A stretch of 35,982 nt of DNA from the IMG/VR virus record IMGVR_UViG_3300044715_000695, positions 1-35,982 of that record, one strand, 5' to 3'. Numbering within the stretch: position 1 is the stretch's first letter; each line of letters begins with the position of its first letter. Position numbers and translations under genes: made by a program. Under the pieces are notes generated by a model, which saw only the letters and a program-made list of their open reading frames with translations, was not told the DNA's origin and did no database searches. Positions 26,739-33,513 of the stretch are shown here, piece by piece. The stretch comes from a virus.

Positions 26739-27020
26739 ATGAAAACTGAAACAAAACTTTATAACCCTTTCGATCACTTGTTGACTCAAGCGGATATGGG
26801 CGACTACTTGACGCAAGCATTTTTGGATGATGACCCTGCTGTTTTTGTTGCTGCACTGGGTCATGCTGCCAAAGCCAAAGGTATTGCCCAACTTGCTACT
26901 GATACCGGGCTTAACCGTGAGAGCCTTTACAAAGCCTTGTCCGGTAAAACACAGCCTAAATGGGATACTGTGCAGCGCATCATCAAGGCTCTGAATATTA
27001 ACTTGCATATTGCCGCTTAA
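26739..27020 (+). CDS. HTH antitoxin of RelE/HigB-type module
   Basis: 93 residues. N-terminal FDHLLTQADMGDYLTQAFLD arm, likely to wrap the toxin, then an XRE-type helix-turn-helix (AQLATDTGLNRESLYKALSG) typical of 'putative addiction module antidote' proteins. It would neutralise the toxin and bind the inverted repeat at 26409-26428. The toxin-first gene order fits this family. Confidence 0.9.
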   Translation: MKTETKLYNPFDHLLTQADMGDYLTQAFLDDDPAVFVAALGHAAKAKGIAQLATDTGLNRESLYKALSGKTQPKWDTVQRIIKALNINLHIAA

Positions 27021-27172: not shown

Positions 27173-28123
27173 TCAATTAGCCGCTTTCATAATCACATAG
27201 TCGTTGTAATCGCATTTGCGCCCATAATCCTCAACGGTTTCTTGATTGATTAAAGTAACGACTCGAACGGTTTTGCCCTCTTTTACCTTCAATCTGTTAG
27301 CCAATTCATAGGCTGCCTTTTGTCCGGTAAAACTCTCATCCGCATCAGCATAAATCCACACGACTTTTACGCTTTCAGGAATAACGATGTTGACCATTGC
27401 TTGTGCGGATCCAGCTGCCCAACAATGAATACCTTGATCTTGTCGAACTGATAACGCGGTTTCTATGCCCTCAGTAATAGCCAATACTTCTTCGGCCTCA
27501 AATAATCTAATAGCACTCCCTACCATTGGACGCATAACGGGTAATATCTTTCTAGGTATTTGTACGGGTGCTTTCCCCCCCTGCTTAGTCACATAAGTAA
27601 TGTGATAGGTTGACACTTCGCCTGTTGGTGTTCTAAACACCGATACCATTGCCGGATAACTGCCGGTTTTAACGCCCTCCTCCCAATAATCTAGGCTGGG
27701 GTGTTCATAGCAATCATGATCGGGTAAGACTGTGATGCCGCGTTTAGCTAGGTATAAAAATACCGCTGAATCAGGGGCAATCTGTTTTAACCCTGCATGA
27801 ATCTTGCGTATTCTGGCCTCGGCTTTTTCTGTATCGGCAGGCTTAACGATCTGGAGCGGTGTAGTCATTACGTTTGGCCTAATTAGTTGTGTGGTTTCTT
27901 TAAATGACAATCCGGTATGTTCGATTGCCATGTCTATTGGCTGTTTTTGTCCGCATTGTGAACAGTAATAAAATTCTTTTGCCCTATCCCACCTAGCCCT
28001 ATCTTTACCGCCACAAAAGATACAAGGTTGATGCTTACCGTTAAATAACTGCGCGTTTATGCCCAAATTTGTCAAAATTGGCGCCCAACGGCCTATACAC
28101 TCTTGTTTAATATCAACTCTCAT
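27173..28123 (-). CDS. Phage primase with zinc ribbon and Toprim domain
   Basis: 316 residues from ATG 28123, coupled to the helicase stop by ATGA. The frame to 28207 is an overlap extension. The zinc ribbon has CIFC at 34-37 and CSQC at 54-57. The Toprim domain shows ITEGIETALS with the catalytic Glu and WIYADAD with the Asp motif, about residues 200-260, and ends with CDYNDYV. It makes RNA primers for phage DNA replication, together with the helicase encoded just upstream. Confidence 0.9.
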   Translation of the reverse strand: MRVDIKQECIGRWAPILTNLGINAQLFNGKHQPCIFCGGKDRARWDRAKEFYYCSQCGQKQPIDMAIEHTGLSFKETTQLIRPNVMTTPLQIVKPADTEKAEARIRKIHAGLKQIAPDSAVFLYLAKRGITVLPDHDCYEHPSLDYWEEGVKTGSYPAMVSVFRTPTGEVSTYHITYVTKQGGKAPVQIPRKILPVMRPMVGSAIRLFEAEEVLAITEGIETALSVRQDQGIHCWAAGSAQAMVNIVIPESVKVVWIYADADESFTGQKAAYELANRLKVKEGKTVRVVTLINQETVEDYGRKCDYNDYVIMKAAN

Positions 28124-29583
28124 GCTGCCGCCCTTGATCTTGCAATCTGACGGTGCTGTACAAAACCAATTACTTCTGGGGTTGGATCTGCGGCTATTTT
28201 TCGCCATGCAGGTTGCACTTTGAATTTCTCAATGTACAAATGAAAGGCATAGCCGTCGTTTTTGCTGTTACGTCGACAATAGCCTAATAATTCTTGATAA
28301 AACTTTTCTTTGTATTCACTACTAAACTTTTCAGCTTTAACTAACTCTTTTAAATCGGCTTGGTGGAAGGGTATGGCCTCACCTTGTTGAATCATTGCCA
28401 AGCCGCATGAAGGACATACCCGACTAGCCCGAAACACATAACCACATTTACATTTAATATCTTTCGGTTCTTTAGCCGCTTTTTGTGCCGCTTCTTTGCG
28501 TTCGCGTATCGTTGATTTATCGTCTAGGGTCCACTCAATCGGATCGTCAATGCGCCCCAAGTCATCAAAGTTATCCCCGTGATAAATCACTAAGCAATCT
28601 TTCTTATCTGGATATAAGCGCGAGCCACGCCCAATCATTTGTATCCAGCTTGAAATGTTCCTTGTTACCCTAGCAATAATGACGCAAGAAATAATGGGCC
28701 AGTCAGTACCAAAGGCCATAACCCCTATATTAACGATCACCTTACTTTTACCGGACATAACGCGTGCTTTTATCGCCTCCCGTTCTTCTGTCGGTGTTGA
28801 GCCGTCAATATATTCAGACGATACCCCATGACGCATAAATTCATCATGAATGTGCTGGGCATGTTTGCAGTTGACCGCAAATATCAACGTGGTTCTATCG
28901 CCAGCAATACGCTTGTAATTCGTATAAATGGAACCAATCAATTCAGGCTTGTCGGTAGCTTCTGCAAGTCCTTTTTCTTGATAGTCACCGTCCGCGTTAA
29001 GTTTCACCAAAGCCAAGTCGGGCGCGTCAGCCCCGTAATAACGCATAGGCACTAGATAGCCTTGATCCACCATAGCCGCCATAGATAAACCCTCGACTAT
29101 ATCGGTATAAAATGCGCCCATGCCTTTACCGTTTGCCAGTGCCGGTGTTGCAGTAATGCCAATCACTAACGGATACTTTTTTAATAATTCAAGTCGTGCC
29201 TGACTAAAGCACGCATGAGCTTCGTCAACCATAACCACATCCGCAGCCGGTAACTGCATTGCACCGGACGATACTCGGCTGGTAATGGTGTCAAAACTGC
29301 CCACTTGCAGTAATGGCATACCGAAAGGCCTTTCACCAGCCATGATTAAGCCCGTGTTAATGCCATAATTCGTAAAGGTTTGCACCGCTTGATAGGCCAA
29401 CTGTCTGCGTGGCACTAAAAACAATACTTTCTTGTAACCACTAACCGCTGAACGGGCTATTTCTGCCGCTACTACGGTTTTTCCAGCGCCTACATGCATT
29501 TGTAAGATAATCCGTCTATTGCCCTTGCCATAGGATTGACGGCTGTCTTTTATTATCTGGTTTTGGTAGTCTCTTAAAATCAT
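28120..29583 (-). CDS. Superfamily 2 DEAH-box helicase
   Basis: 487 residues. Walker A HVGAGKT at 30-36, DEAH near residue 118, GITATP motif III-like, a helicase C-terminal domain (FGTDWPIISCV and QMIGRGSRLYP motif VI). A C-terminal zinc finger has CKCGYVF and CPSCG (about residues 385-405). ATP-driven unwinding, probably the replicative or recombination helicase of this phage, in an operon with the primase. Confidence 0.92.
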   Translation of the reverse strand: MILRDYQNQIIKDSRQSYGKGNRRIILQMHVGAGKTVVAAEIARSAVSGYKKVLFLVPRRQLAYQAVQTFTNYGINTGLIMAGERPFGMPLLQVGSFDTITSRVSSGAMQLPAADVVMVDEAHACFSQARLELLKKYPLVIGITATPALANGKGMGAFYTDIVEGLSMAAMVDQGYLVPMRYYGADAPDLALVKLNADGDYQEKGLAEATDKPELIGSIYTNYKRIAGDRTTLIFAVNCKHAQHIHDEFMRHGVSSEYIDGSTPTEEREAIKARVMSGKSKVIVNIGVMAFGTDWPIISCVIIARVTRNISSWIQMIGRGSRLYPDKKDCLVIYHGDNFDDLGRIDDPIEWTLDDKSTIRERKEAAQKAAKEPKDIKCKCGYVFRASRVCPSCGLAMIQQGEAIPFHQADLKELVKAEKFSSEYKEKFYQELLGYCRRNSKNDGYAFHLYIEKFKVQPAWRKIAADPTPEVIGFVQHRQIARSRAAA

Positions 29584-29668: not shown

Positions 29669-30208
29669 CTATGCAGGCCAATGCACTAGCCCGCCCAATT
29701 CTTTTACTGCGTCCTCCATTATTTTTTTTAAATTGAAGTTTGTTTCTTCAAGCTGTTTAATTCTTTTGTTTAAAAAAGTTATATCAACTGGTTTTGCTGG
29801 ATTTTTATCAGCATAGTCATACCAAGCAGCGACAAAGTTGTGCATCCTTTCTGGTGTTGTCTCTGCGTGCTTGTCCATTTTTATATTGTTTTTAAAGCCA
29901 TTAGCACACCAAGTCTTTGCACTCTCTGGCGATAACTTGCCTTCAATAAAAATAATCGTGAAACACCCCAACTTAAAAGCAGACTCAAATGTGTACATCT
30001 GACCTAGTGGAATTGGCACGCCTACGCCTTTGGTTTCGAATAATAAGAAATTACCCTTTCTCTCTATAACGCCGTCAAAATCCATTGGTGTAATTCTTCC
30101 TTTTCCAAGGGCGCCTTGAGTCCATGACCAATCAAAAACACCGTCATAACCAGCCGCCGGTGAATTTAAGAAAGTTTCAGGGTGCTTTATGGTGTCCGGT
30201 AAACTCAT
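29669..30208 (-). CDS. Predicted PD-(D/E)XK-type nuclease
   Basis: 179 residues. The segment PMDFDGVIERKGNFLLFETKG has the Asp...Glu-x-Lys layout (DFDGV ... FETK) of restriction-like nucleases such as VRR-NUC. A Gln-containing segment (PLGQMYTFESAF) follows, then mixed alpha/beta. The C-terminus is a coiled coil (RIKQLEETNFNLKKIME). Overlaps the Dam-type gene by four bases. It probably works in DNA recombination or as a restriction-type protein paired with the methyltransferase. Confidence 0.7.
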   Translation of the reverse strand: MSLPDTIKHPETFLNSPAAGYDGVFDWSWTQGALGKGRITPMDFDGVIERKGNFLLFETKGVGVPIPLGQMYTFESAFKLGCFTIIFIEGKLSPESAKTWCANGFKNNIKMDKHAETTPERMHNFVAAWYDYADKNPAKPVDITFLNKRIKQLEETNFNLKKIMEDAVKELGGLVHWPA

Positions 30209-31203
30209 GCTTTCACCATCACTAATCCATATTGTGAAAATTCTTTGTTAAACCCTTCTGGATTATTGCCAAAGTAAAAAAAAGACTGACCGTTTGTTGG
30301 GCTTGATGTTGATCCATCACGCTTTAAGAAATTAATACGCCCCGCTGTAAAGCAAATAGCAGAGGCTTGTTGTGCTGATTTATGAAACCAAGATGTGTCT
30401 GTATTGTTATTTGTCAGTACAATCGCTTCAGTTACTTCATTGTTTTCAAAATGACTTACCAGTTTTTCAAGGAATACATTAATAATCCTTGCTGTGTAAG
30501 GTGGATTCATCCACACCTTGCCTTTCCATTGCTTTGTTAGCCCATCATCAGCTTGTGTATAATAAATATCTGCATTGACGTTTTTTTGAGCCATTGGGTT
30601 TGATGCTGGATCAAGATCAATACCGCCCATCACCAAACGAGCTGACTCAAGGTATTTTTCAGGCGTGTAACTTTCTTCATCACCTGTGTTTAAAGTTGCC
30701 AAGGTTGCTGAAGTAAATCCTTTTGTTTCATACTCAACATTTTCAATCACTTCACCGGAAGCAATAAAATCATCAACTTTCTTTTGTACGAAAGCGGCGG
30801 TGATTTTTACTTTATTGCCTTGGGAGTCATAAACGACATTTTGCCAAACAGCTATACGTTCAGAGTCAGTCTTTAAACTATCAATTAATGGCCTTAAGTG
30901 AGTCTCAGACGATGGTAAAAAGTGCACTTTTAGTTCACTTTTTGCGTCTTTATCCGTTAGAATTTCATCTTGATAAAAGGCGATTTTTTGCGTTAAATCG
31001 GCTGCATTAATAATTTGATAACCGCGTCTTTTTTGCCCGAACTCCCACCTTGTTTCTAGGTAGTTTTCAAAAGTGATGTATTTTTTTTCATAAAGCCTTT
31101 CATCACGGATTTTCATTAAAATTAATCCGTTTTGATACCAAGCCGCTTTGATGTTTTTATCAATCAGCTTTTCTAGCGTTAGTAGTTTTTTTGAATCACT
31201 CAT
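30205..31203 (-). CDS. Phage DNA N6-adenine methyltransferase (Dam family PF05869-like)
   Basis: 332 residues. The C-terminal domain has GGIDLDPASNP (AdoMet pocket) and VWMNPPYT (catalytic NPPY, near 233), and the TGRINFLKRDG-type segment (AGRINFLKRDG) seen in phage Dam proteins. The N-terminal ~150 residues are helical and resemble the DNA-binding extension of larger phage methyltransferases. It would methylate adenine in phage DNA, a second modification enzyme besides the one at 22544-23830. Confidence 0.9.
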   Translation of the reverse strand: MSDSKKLLTLEKLIDKNIKAAWYQNGLILMKIRDERLYEKKYITFENYLETRWEFGQKRRGYQIINAADLTQKIAFYQDEILTDKDAKSELKVHFLPSSETHLRPLIDSLKTDSERIAVWQNVVYDSQGNKVKITAAFVQKKVDDFIASGEVIENVEYETKGFTSATLATLNTGDEESYTPEKYLESARLVMGGIDLDPASNPMAQKNVNADIYYTQADDGLTKQWKGKVWMNPPYTARIINVFLEKLVSHFENNEVTEAIVLTNNNTDTSWFHKSAQQASAICFTAGRINFLKRDGSTSSPTNGQSFFYFGNNPEGFNKEFSQYGLVMVKA

Positions 31204-31726
31204 TTATTCGTCTCTTAGCCCTAACCATGTGTTAGTAGCTGTTTAAGCTCGTTGTAGCCCGTTTCAAACCAGTGTTTCAGCGAAATTTGCTGTACCTTTC
31301 TTAGGACTCATTTAATACATTCCTATGGTTAGGGCTGAAAAACCAAACCACTGTAAATCTCAGTGTTCGGGGTAAAGATTCCCCTACCCAAATAATCGGG
31401 TAGAACGAATCTACTTAGAGTGTCGCAGCACTCAGGACGGCAATCCTCTAGACATATTTTGTTGCCGCTGACCAGACTTAACACCTATGGCAGATGCCTC
31501 ACTACGGCTCTGGTCGTCCACTTGACTTACTGCCAGACTAAACCGGATCACCTTTAGCTATTAGGCTGAAGTTCCGTTTTTCGTCTCGATTTGCAATAAA
31601 TCATTGGGATGATTCCCACCGTTGAGGGCGTGTGCGTTCTCCCCTCACTTAACAACCAGACCGAACCCGTTTTTAGCCTGAATCTTCCGGTTGCTTTTCA
31701 AACAGCCAAGTCTGAGTTGACGTGTC
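31204..31726 (-). ncRNA. Candidate structured non-coding RNA region
   Basis: 523 bases with no open frame longer than a few dozen codons, inside a leftward operon otherwise packed with overlapping genes. Visible stems: CACTG/CAGTG (31349, 31361), GGGG/CCCC (31369, 31381), CTACCC/GGGTAG (31384, 31398), GTAGA/TCTAC (31400, 31410), GAGTG/CACTC (31418, 31429), CGGCAA/TTGCCG (31438, 31462), GACCAGA/TCTGGTC (31470, 31509). A 12-bp outer pair AGCCCTAACCAT/ATGGTTAGGGCT lies at 31217-31228 and 31325-31336. CCAGAC recurs at 31472, 31533 and 31656. The strand is inferred from the operon. I cannot name a family. Confidence 0.45.
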
Positions 31727-31921
31727 TTAATTCTTACTATTTATAATTGCAATACACTGCTGAATACGATTTCTTTCGCAGTGATCCATGTCGGTAAGTG
31801 CTGGCGTAAACTCAAAGCCTCTACCAAAGCCTCTACCAAACGTGTTCTTCTGTGCAGGACGAGGTTGCAATTTCAAACTTGCCGCCCGCTTATCCCCTGC
31901 TATGTTTCTTTTTTGACTCAT
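31727..31921 (-). CDS. Hypothetical basic protein with GRGFGRG repeat
   Basis: 64 residues from ATG 31921. A start at 31954 would add 11 residues and is equally possible. A basic N-terminus (SQKRNIAGDKRAASLKLQP) leads to a tandem FGRGFGRG (a 12-base DNA duplication), then acidic FEFTPALTDMDHCERNRIQ. The Gly/Arg repeat suggests nucleic-acid binding. No family recognised. It directly precedes the structured non-coding block. Confidence 0.45.
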   Translation of the reverse strand: MSQKRNIAGDKRAASLKLQPRPAQKNTFGRGFGRGFEFTPALTDMDHCERNRIQQCIAIINSKN

Positions 31922-31989
31922 GATTTCCGCTAGACTACTTTTCAAAAAGTTCAATTAACAGTACAAAATTTAATGTTTACTTAGTAAAC

Positions 31990-32190
31990 CTAACTTATCT
32001 TTTTTCCGAGGGCTTCACACAGTAGAATTAACTCAGATTCTTTTTTCTCAACGTGCAATAGAACCAAATCATGAAGATACTCAGACTGACTAACATCATC
32101 GAGCTGACAAAGACCCGCCAAGGCTCTCTTAACCTTGTCAGTAGTCTTAAATCCGATAGTTTCCATGCGTTTTTCTGGATGTTCAGCCAT
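31990..32190 (-). CDS. Small regulator, ribbon-helix-helix-like
   Basis: 66 residues. METIGFKTTDKVKRALAGLCQ, then VSQSEYLHDLVLLHVE: a beta strand followed by two helices in the ribbon-helix-helix (CopG/Arc) order. It starts two bases after the Cro/YdaS-like stop, so the two are co-expressed from the leftward promoter. It probably acts as an early regulator. Confidence 0.65.
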   Translation of the reverse strand: MAEHPEKRMETIGFKTTDKVKRALAGLCQLDDVSQSEYLHDLVLLHVEKKESELILLCEALGKKIS

Positions 32191-32192
32191 GT

Positions 32193-32387
32193 TTATTTAC
32201 CAAAAATGTCGGGGCGGATTTCTTCGCGAGGTATGCCGAAAAGAAGTGCAATTTTTTTAGTGTTTTCAACTGACGGCTTTTTCTGCTCTAAAACCCAAGC
32301 TGAAAACGTAGATGTAGAGACACCAAGCGCTTTACACGCTTTTTCTTGACTGCCATGATTGGCTGAAATCTTCTGGAATATGTTCAT
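32193..32387 (-). CDS. Cro/YdaS-like HTH repressor
   Basis: 64 residues. The helix-turn-helix GSQEKACKALGVSTSTFSAW and the basic EQKKPS, followed by IALLFGIPREEIRPDIF, is the Cro/YdaS ('antitoxin of YdaST') pattern. The ATG lies exactly six bases after the -10 of the leftward promoter, so its mRNA appears leaderless. Divergent from the CI-like gene. It should be the lytic-side switch protein that competes for the same operators. Confidence 0.82.
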   Translation of the reverse strand: MNIFQKISANHGSQEKACKALGVSTSTFSAWVLEQKKPSVENTKKIALLFGIPREEIRPDIFGK

Positions 32388-33163: not shown

Positions 33164-33189
33164 GCATTAATCCCCTAATGGTGGATAAT
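33162..33189 (+). promoter_or_regulatory. Rightward early promoter (PR-like)
   Basis: TTGCAT (33162-33167), 16 bases, GATAAT (33184-33189). The sequence around the -10 (TGGTGGATAAT) is almost the same as in the leftward promoter, and operator O3 (33170-33186) fills the spacer and the -10. Confidence 0.65.
33170..33186. promoter_or_regulatory. Repressor operator O3
   Basis: ATCCCCTAATGGTGGAT; the reverse strand reads ATCCACCATTAGGGGAT, the best palindrome of the four sites (ATCC....GGAT). It overlaps the rightward promoter. Confidence 0.65.
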
Positions 33190-33513
33190 AACATCCAACG
33201 AAACGGAAAATCCCCGTAGAAGGATTGCAAGGCCGCCTGATAGCGATAGACCTTAGCAGCAACGCTCTTTGTATAAATAGCATTTTAACGAGTGCTATTT
33301 ATACAACGTCCTCATGTTGTGACTCCTACCTGCTCCGTAGCGATACGGGGCTTTTTTGAGGGTTCATAAGACTGTCTATCTCGCGGATTTTTTTGAGAGA
33401 CTTGACGCTTGGTAGGCAGTCTTATGAATACAGCTTAGACAACTGTATTTCACTTGCGTGTAATGTCCGAAACGGTGTGAAGCCGAAACAATAATAATTT
33501 TAAGGGGTACAAA
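33190..33513 (+). ncRNA. Structured leader of the rightward operon
   Basis: 324 bases between the promoter and the first gene, without open frames. It contains a 14-bp perfect hairpin TTGTATAAATAGCA/TGCTATTTATACAA (33269-33306), an intrinsic terminator (33332-33357), a 12-bp long-range pair TTCATAAGACTG/CAGTCTTATGAA (33363-33374 and 33417-33428) and a 7-bp stem AATACAG/CTGTATT (33427-33449). The last pairs overlap, so they are mutually exclusive. Such a leader with a terminator in front of all early genes implies antitermination, by a protein or by the RNA itself. Confidence 0.5.
33332..33357 (+). terminator. Intrinsic terminator in early leader
   Basis: GCTCCGTA and TACGGGGC form an 8-bp stem (one G-T pair) closed by a GCGA tetraloop and followed by TTTTTT. 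This is the strongest terminator in the window and lies 140 bases after the rightward promoter, before any gene. Confidence 0.8.

Follow-up and report, generated by a model that had tools for sequence, protein, structure and literature searches.

Layout of the early operon and its non-coding gap

The DNA analysed in this study (i.e. the window) corresponds to a 35,982-base IMG/VR virus record. The order of genes in the window is like that of a temperate phage, with a CI repressor on the plus strand, a Cro-like protein on the minus strand, small proteins and a minus-strand early operon that includes a Dam-type methyltransferase, an SF2 helicase and a Toprim primase. A non-coding gap is flanked by the Dam-type methyltransferase and by a 64-aa basic protein. 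The features around this gap were as follows:

27176–28123, minus strand: Toprim/DUF7146 primase, in the same module as the SF2 helicase
28120–29583, minus strand: SF2 helicase (ResIII/Helicase_C), in the replication module that is linked with the RNA described below
30205–31203, minus strand: Dam-type adenine methyltransferase, which adjoins the gap downstream and varies among relatives
31219–31334, minus strand: inverted repeat CCCTAACCAT/ATGGTTAGGG around the remnant of an RMF-like ORF (start codon at 31311)
31730–31921, minus strand: small basic protein of 64 aa (MSQKRNIAGDKRAAS...), of no known family
32193–32387, minus strand: Cro-like HTH protein, heading the PR operon

The first-pass annotation had described the gap as about 520 hairpin-dense non-coding bases that hold no gene. 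The absence of a gene was borne out, as the longest ORF within the gap has 51 aa and all frames are broken by stops across the four type A homologues described below. The gap is also non-coding and structured as described, but the structured core covers ~390 nt and the last ~110 nt are a decayed small ORF. This region spans about 31311 to 31204 on the minus strand, with the ORF itself at 31311–31228, and reads 15 aa in the window versus 57 aa in L007 (1535–1708), where the product has weak similarity, short of the family cut-off, to ribosome modulation factor (PF04957, E 0.0011). A deletion between CAGCA repeats has shifted the frame of the window ORF, with 15 codons remaining, and the region is accepted here, on sequence comparison, as the remnant of a small coding ORF. 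The outer 12-bp pair of the annotation is present (31219–31228 with 31325–31334) and brackets this remnant; it was excluded from the RNA core because its arms flank a small ORF that is intact in L007. Both arms are kept in L013 with only ~50 nt between them.

The 64-aa basic protein is highly conserved (pattern QKRNIAGDKRAASL..PR..Q.NTFGRGFE) and mostly adjoins the RNA upstream, being absent before the RNA in L025, L049 and L089. A repeated motif, TAGTCTAGCG, was observed ahead of the slot in L089 (2500–2515), in L055 (around 3405) and in the window (around 31935), and another, TTCTAGCGATACC, was found behind the slot in several phages; these motifs may represent a recombination junction of the module. 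Elsewhere in the window, an HI1420-type addiction module antidote protein is encoded at 26739–27020 on the plus strand (PF21716, E 5e-26). A tRNA/tmRNA search of the window detected none, and scans of species-representative genomes for prophages with protein and DNA patterns produced no true match. Global GC skew was uninformative for placing an origin because the skew tracks gene direction.

A conserved structured RNA on the minus strand

The folding energy of the gap was better than that of 100 out of 100 dinucleotide shuffles on both strands, with z-scores of -3.6 for the minus and -3.7 for the plus strand. Scanning for the methyltransferase, the 64-aa protein and a DNA motif yielded relatives, and four diverged versions (i.e. 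the window, L007, L013 and L025) were aligned as type A, with L025 having 69% identity over 366 nt. RNAalifold predicted a structure of many helices for this four-version alignment, which was assigned as follows:

31340–31726, minus strand: type A RNA core with 14 conserved helices (from the alignment with L007, L013 and L025, RNAalifold and pair counts)
31700–31726, minus strand: helix 1, the 5' hairpin GACACGUCAA/UUGGCUGUUU, with 4 of 10 pairs changed on both sides
31656–31690, minus strand: helices 2 and 3, CCGGA/UCUGG and an inner hairpin, with 3 of 5 pairs of helix 2 changed on both sides
31623–31647, minus strand: helix 4, UGAGGG/CCCUCA
31368–31621, minus strand: helix 5, long-range pairing of CGGUGG (31621–31616) with CCCCG (31372–31368), closing a central multibranch junction
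31517–31609, minus strand: helices 6–8, a long stem of 31609–31565 with 31558–31517, with 11 pairs changed on both sides
31470–31515, minus strand: helices 9–11, GACCAGA/UCUGGUC and two inner hairpins, near-invariant at an overall identity down to 69%
31437–31468, minus strand: helix 12, GCGGCAA/UUGCCGU, with 4 of 7 pairs changed on both sides (GUGUUAG/CUAACAC in L025)
31418–31433, minus strand: helix 13, GAGUG/CACUC, with 3 of 5 pairs changed on both sides
31376–31412, minus strand: helix 14, AGAUUC..CUACCCGA/UUGGGUAG.GAAUCU with the GGGUAGGGG motif

A standard pair was formed in 98.0% of the alignment cells for the 103 explicitly counted pairs. Changes on both sides were present in 28 of these 103 pairs as compared to 11.6±2.3 in shuffles and 1–4 when the partners were slid; derivation of the structure from the same four sequences confers an advantage over the slid controls, and the excess over shuffles is still large. 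One compensatory example is a hairpin in which ACCCGAUUAUUUGGGU is replaced by ACCCGAAAGGGU. Helix 5 is almost without variation in this alignment and is hence a prediction that carries no covariation signal. Consensus folding yielded -100.4 kcal/mol for the minus strand, with a covariation term of -12.9, versus -81.1 kcal/mol and -5.1 for the reverse complement. The RNA strand is therefore the minus strand, in the same direction as the early operon, and the reverse strand was ruled out by its weaker consensus energy and covariation term. A coding remnant was also rejected as an explanation for the core on the basis of stops in every frame and the compensatory changes. With compensatory changes above the controls and the operon strand favoured, the minus strand of the window from 31726 to ~31340 is a non-coding, strongly structured RNA.

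Several specific claims of the first-pass annotation could be compared with this structure. Its series of short stems between 31349 and 31515 was recovered, with helices 9–14 covering 31515–31376 and a CACTG/CAGTG stem at 31365–31349. Three copies of the CCAGAC direct repeat do exist, but only the copy at 31472 (i.e. in helix 9) is conserved and the other two change in relatives. Among the alternative pairings proposed around CTACCC, GGGTAG and TACCC, conservation favours GGGTAG with CTACCC and GAATCT with AGATTC (helix 14), with CCCCG being paired to CGGTGG (helix 5). Absence of covariation and pseudogene-like decay had been named as observations that would speak against an RNA: both-sided changes exceed those of shuffles in the core, and decay is restricted to 31311–31204.

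The suggested scan with covariance models was performed using Rfam 15 and gave no match at the gathering score over the window and none that was plausible at E ≤ 10 in 31150–32000. Type A is an RNA without counterpart in Rfam 15, in agreement with the proposal of a new large RNA. Membership of the GOLLD or ROOL classes, which had been offered as an alternative, was not upheld: neither model matches and the genome place differs. Searches for nucleotide relatives found none for the window RNA in plasmids and none for types A–D in named phages. Pattern matches in L019, L021, L022, L026–L028, L030, L032–L040 and L041–L044 were rejected as chance matches elsewhere.

RNA types and linkage with a replication module

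The same slot (i.e. the part of the PR operon that follows cro and small regulators) is occupied in related phages by RNAs that cannot be aligned with type A. These were assigned to type B (L003 and L008), type C (L009, L010, L011, L012, L049 and L089) and type D (L015 and L017, with near-identical copies only), and lie behind the 64-aa protein or in the equivalent place without that protein. In types B and C the RNA starts with a hairpin, the loop of which can pair with downstream sequence. For type C, this loop pairing was read by eye as UACCA/UGGUA in L047 and UCUGG/CCAGA in L009. Further helices also change in step, as judged by eye (UCGCAA/UUGCGA, AUCGUAA/UUACGAU and GCAUCAAUA/UAUUGAUGC; GCUG/CAGC, CUGC/GCAG and UCGG/CCGA). 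No match was obtained in an Rfam scan of types B, C and D. A short G-rich motif close to the 3' end is common to types A, B and D (GGGUAGGGG.., GGGGUAGGGGG.. and GGGGUUAGGGA.., respectively) and is suggestive of a tie between these types.

An SF2 helicase of the ResIII/DEAD type was present in each of the 17 contigs that carry an RNA and extend as far as the next helicase gene (i.e. the window, L002, L003, L004, L006, L007, L008, L009, L010, L011, L013, L015, L017, L025, L049, L052 and L089), with accessory genes sitting between the RNA and the helicase. A Toprim primase follows wherever the sequence reaches far enough, except in L008, which has the RNA and the SF2 helicase and no match to this primase. 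A scan seeded with the primase only identified further contigs, and those extending far enough upstream hold an RNA or its 3' end; a primase search in 398 genomes of one phylum detected one distant match. Contigs L055, L056, L057 and L059, which were found via the Cro protein, have the order regulator gene, terminator and Prim-Pol (PF09250/PriCT_2/DUF3987) with no space for an RNA; this RNA-less comparison set consists of four contigs only, which are close relatives with the same cro-regulator layout upstream. L089 and L055 share a near-identical RHH gene and differ in everything downstream, with L089 having the RNA and the SF2 module and L055 having neither, and the swap boundary is therefore placed just ahead of the RNA. 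Three kinds of helicase accompany type A, two accompany type B and at least two accompany type C. This independence of RNA type from helicase kind makes the RNA types look allelic. The pattern of linkage between RNA and helicase may, at least in part, reflect one block exchange.

Isolated phages were found via the primase and helicase and exhibit the order cro, small genes in some cases, non-coding slot, SF2 helicase and primase. The slot measures 471 nt in Pseudomonas phage YA3 and 613 nt in PS-1, where it lies directly between cro and the helicase. Slots of roughly 190–430 nt were observed in E. coli phage Fostie, Klebsiella phages ST340-VIM1phi10.1 and KPP5665-2, Fels-1, Providencia phage PSTCR3, Cronobacter phage ENT39118, Yersinia phage YP3, Serratia phage OS31, E. 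coli phage PhiR12_3 and the E. coli D53-1 prophage. Most of the enterobacterial slots are mutually related, with a purine/G tract and CUUUUCCAACA as common blocks. The named-phage slots match the window slot by position; homology of their RNAs to the window RNA, like homology among types A–D, would be hypothetical at the sequence level. Rfam scans of these slots returned nothing relevant. Folding of the YA3 slot was not significantly better than that of shuffles (z -1.0), and no structure is claimed for the enterobacterial slots because the consensus of their alignment was weak (7 of 32 pairs compensatory).

The G skew of the transcript strand, measured over 60 nt, was 0.70–1.00 in the enterobacterial slots and about 0 over the helicase genes, with lower values than in these slots for the window RNA (0.45) and for types B and C (0.2–0.3). 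The slot form of Fostie was detected at ≥80% query coverage in 42 of 5426 complete E. coli genomes and was mostly unannotated. Where CDSs have been annotated in the slot region of named phages, as hypothetical or 'helicase' genes and in several cases on the opposite strand (L101 3456–3842; L103 3488–3844; L104 3611–3733 and 3783–3899; L107 437–934), these are probably dubious gene calls. Fels-1 also contains a full-length match to the STnc100 sRNA (138 bits; L100 9031–9244) downstream of its antitermination Q gene. In Vibrio phage 1.233.A the position of the slot, ahead of a homologous SF2 helicase and primase, is taken by a protein initiator of the RepL family (PF05732) and there is no large RNA.

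Candidate roles of the large RNA

We infer that the large RNA may act as the origin-region RNA of a helicase/primase replicon that has no initiator protein, a function to which a probability of roughly 0.4 is assigned. The observations behind this reading are the conserved structure on the operon strand, the presence of the RNA with SF2-helicase modules, its absence with Prim-Pol and the exchange for RepL in the Vibrio phage. The linkage with the SF2 module is joined by an absence of RepL and lambda-O matches from the other 20 records, these being the only two initiator families searched. Against an origin role are the possible block exchange with its small RNA-less set, the weak G skew of the window RNA and of types B and C, the missing primase match in L008, the accessory genes ahead of the helicase, the lack of demonstrated iterons or of an unwinding element and the restriction of the Vibrio RepL case to one phage group. 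The RNA would be made within the early rightward (PR) transcript as part of the replication module, and would mark and open the replication origin in cis, doing the work of protein initiators like lambda O, RepL or a Prim-Pol. It could do so through an RNA–DNA hybrid, for example by being processed into a primer, or by exposing a strand for loading of the SF2 helicase and the Toprim primase. Each RNA type would be one of several interchangeable alleles with a common function, as types and helicase kinds are shuffled.

The hybrid step is proposed by analogy with ColE1 RNA II and the R-loop origins of T4, and from a G skew seen mainly in the enterobacterial forms, since high skew is expected of sequence prone to RNA–DNA hybrids. 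ColE1 RNA II is a long structured primer transcript for plasmid replication that replaces an initiator protein. The RNA described here would be similar as a transcript that is long and structured, lies at an origin or upstream of it and stands in for an initiator protein. It differs in having no sequence similarity or Rfam match to RNA II, no antisense RNA I that could be found and a hybrid that is hypothetical, and in being encoded by a phage with its own helicase and primase. T4 is a precedent both for R-loop origins and for a helicase that unwinds R-loops, with UvsW removing R-loops late in infection (PMC3016281). The likeness to T4 oriF and oriG would lie in a transcript proposed to open the origin and, in the T4 system, a helicase that acts on R-loops; in contrast, no conserved RNA structure is ascribed to the T4 origin transcript (PMC3016281), and the hybrid postulated for the window is again hypothetical.

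Antitermination has to be weighed together with a second RNA element, which is unrelated to the large RNA and lies at the start of the PL transcript:

33189–33260, plus strand: conserved RNA element of ~70 nt, with a pseudoknot and a hairpin
33332–33351, plus strand: strong intrinsic terminator that separates PL and the downstream element from the first left gene

The PL element consists of a hairpin, ACGG[AAAAUCC]CCGU, whose loop pairs with GGAUU, and an added second hairpin. Three pairs of the pseudoknot are changed on both sides, with compensatory changes in L055 and L059. The element is found in most relatives, including these two, and is lost in L056, L057 and L052 and truncated in L009. 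A long hairpin of ~20 bp was also seen after the PL terminator (33364–33433, plus strand; TTCATAAGACTG...CAGTCTTATGAAT), and relatives have similar hairpins of other sequence. Operator-like inverted repeats overlapping PL vary from phage to phage, as expected of differing repressor specificities.

The put RNA of phage HK022 suppresses termination by binding the zinc-binding domain of the beta' subunit of RNA polymerase. An equivalent proposal for the window is that the large RNA, placed where lambda has nutR, is an antitermination RNA that acts in cis, with a nascent fold that binds RNA polymerase such that terminators before the replication genes are read through, with the PL element as its left counterpart. 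The large RNA does lie behind cro and ahead of terminator-like hairpins in L008, L011, L012, L025 and L049, and the ~70-nt pseudoknot element sits immediately after PL and before a strong terminator. This placement is comparable to that of HK022, a lambdoid phage with structured cis RNAs in both early transcripts, where a putL of ~70 nt closely follows PL and putR comes ~270 nt after the PR start (PMC9378689). The put sites are themselves ~70 nt and putL resembles putR, whereas the right RNA core here is ~390 nt, 4–6 times larger than the left element and unrelated to it; a model of the left element (R1), run at E ≤ 5 against 23 sources, detected no copy on the right side, and the notion that the right RNA is a copy of the left was rejected. 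Furthermore, L055 and L059 retain the left element and the right terminator without the right RNA, and L056 and L057 lack both RNAs. Antitermination by the large RNA is accordingly considered unlikely, and the PL element, which agrees with putL in size and place, is by this analogy more likely than the large RNA to be an antitermination site.

An early non-coding RNA that acts in trans (i.e. a scaffold, decoy or regulator targeting host factors or defence), is housed in an exchangeable slot and is excised by flanking terminators would account for the widely differing RNA types in one slot, which are reminiscent of an arms race, and for the terminator-like hairpins that several phages have after the RNA. 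GOLLD and ROOL are precedents as large, ornate phage RNAs without known function; they differ in often being near tRNA islands (PMC12286853), whereas the window RNA is shorter, lies in an early replication operon and matches neither covariance model. A free accessory element would not be expected to segregate strictly with one replication module or to occupy an equivalent position in distant relatives that also have that module, and this role is likewise held to be improbable. Location upstream of early genes on the same strand would also suit a long structured 5' leader that controls their translation or stability in a riboswitch-like or autoregulatory manner. The next gene, however, varies between a Dam methylase, an MT-A70 methylase, a DUF3102 protein and the helicase, so that such a leader would have no fixed target, making this the case only with very low probability.

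The type A RNA represents a new family of large structured phage RNAs that exhibits strong covariation, and its segregation with one replication module provides a functional lead for a large phage RNA. Extension of the origin-region role to all of these phages is a more tentative proposal: a widespread lambdoid replicon of gammaproteobacteria, with an SF2 helicase and a Toprim primase, might be started by a modular and fast-diversifying large RNA that has been overlooked since its slot is blank or dubiously annotated, possibly including in Fels-1. If true, this would explain how replication starts in lambdoid phages without O-, RepL- or Prim-Pol-type initiators, a question that is approachable in E. 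coli as Fostie, which was isolated on E. coli, has a version of the slot.
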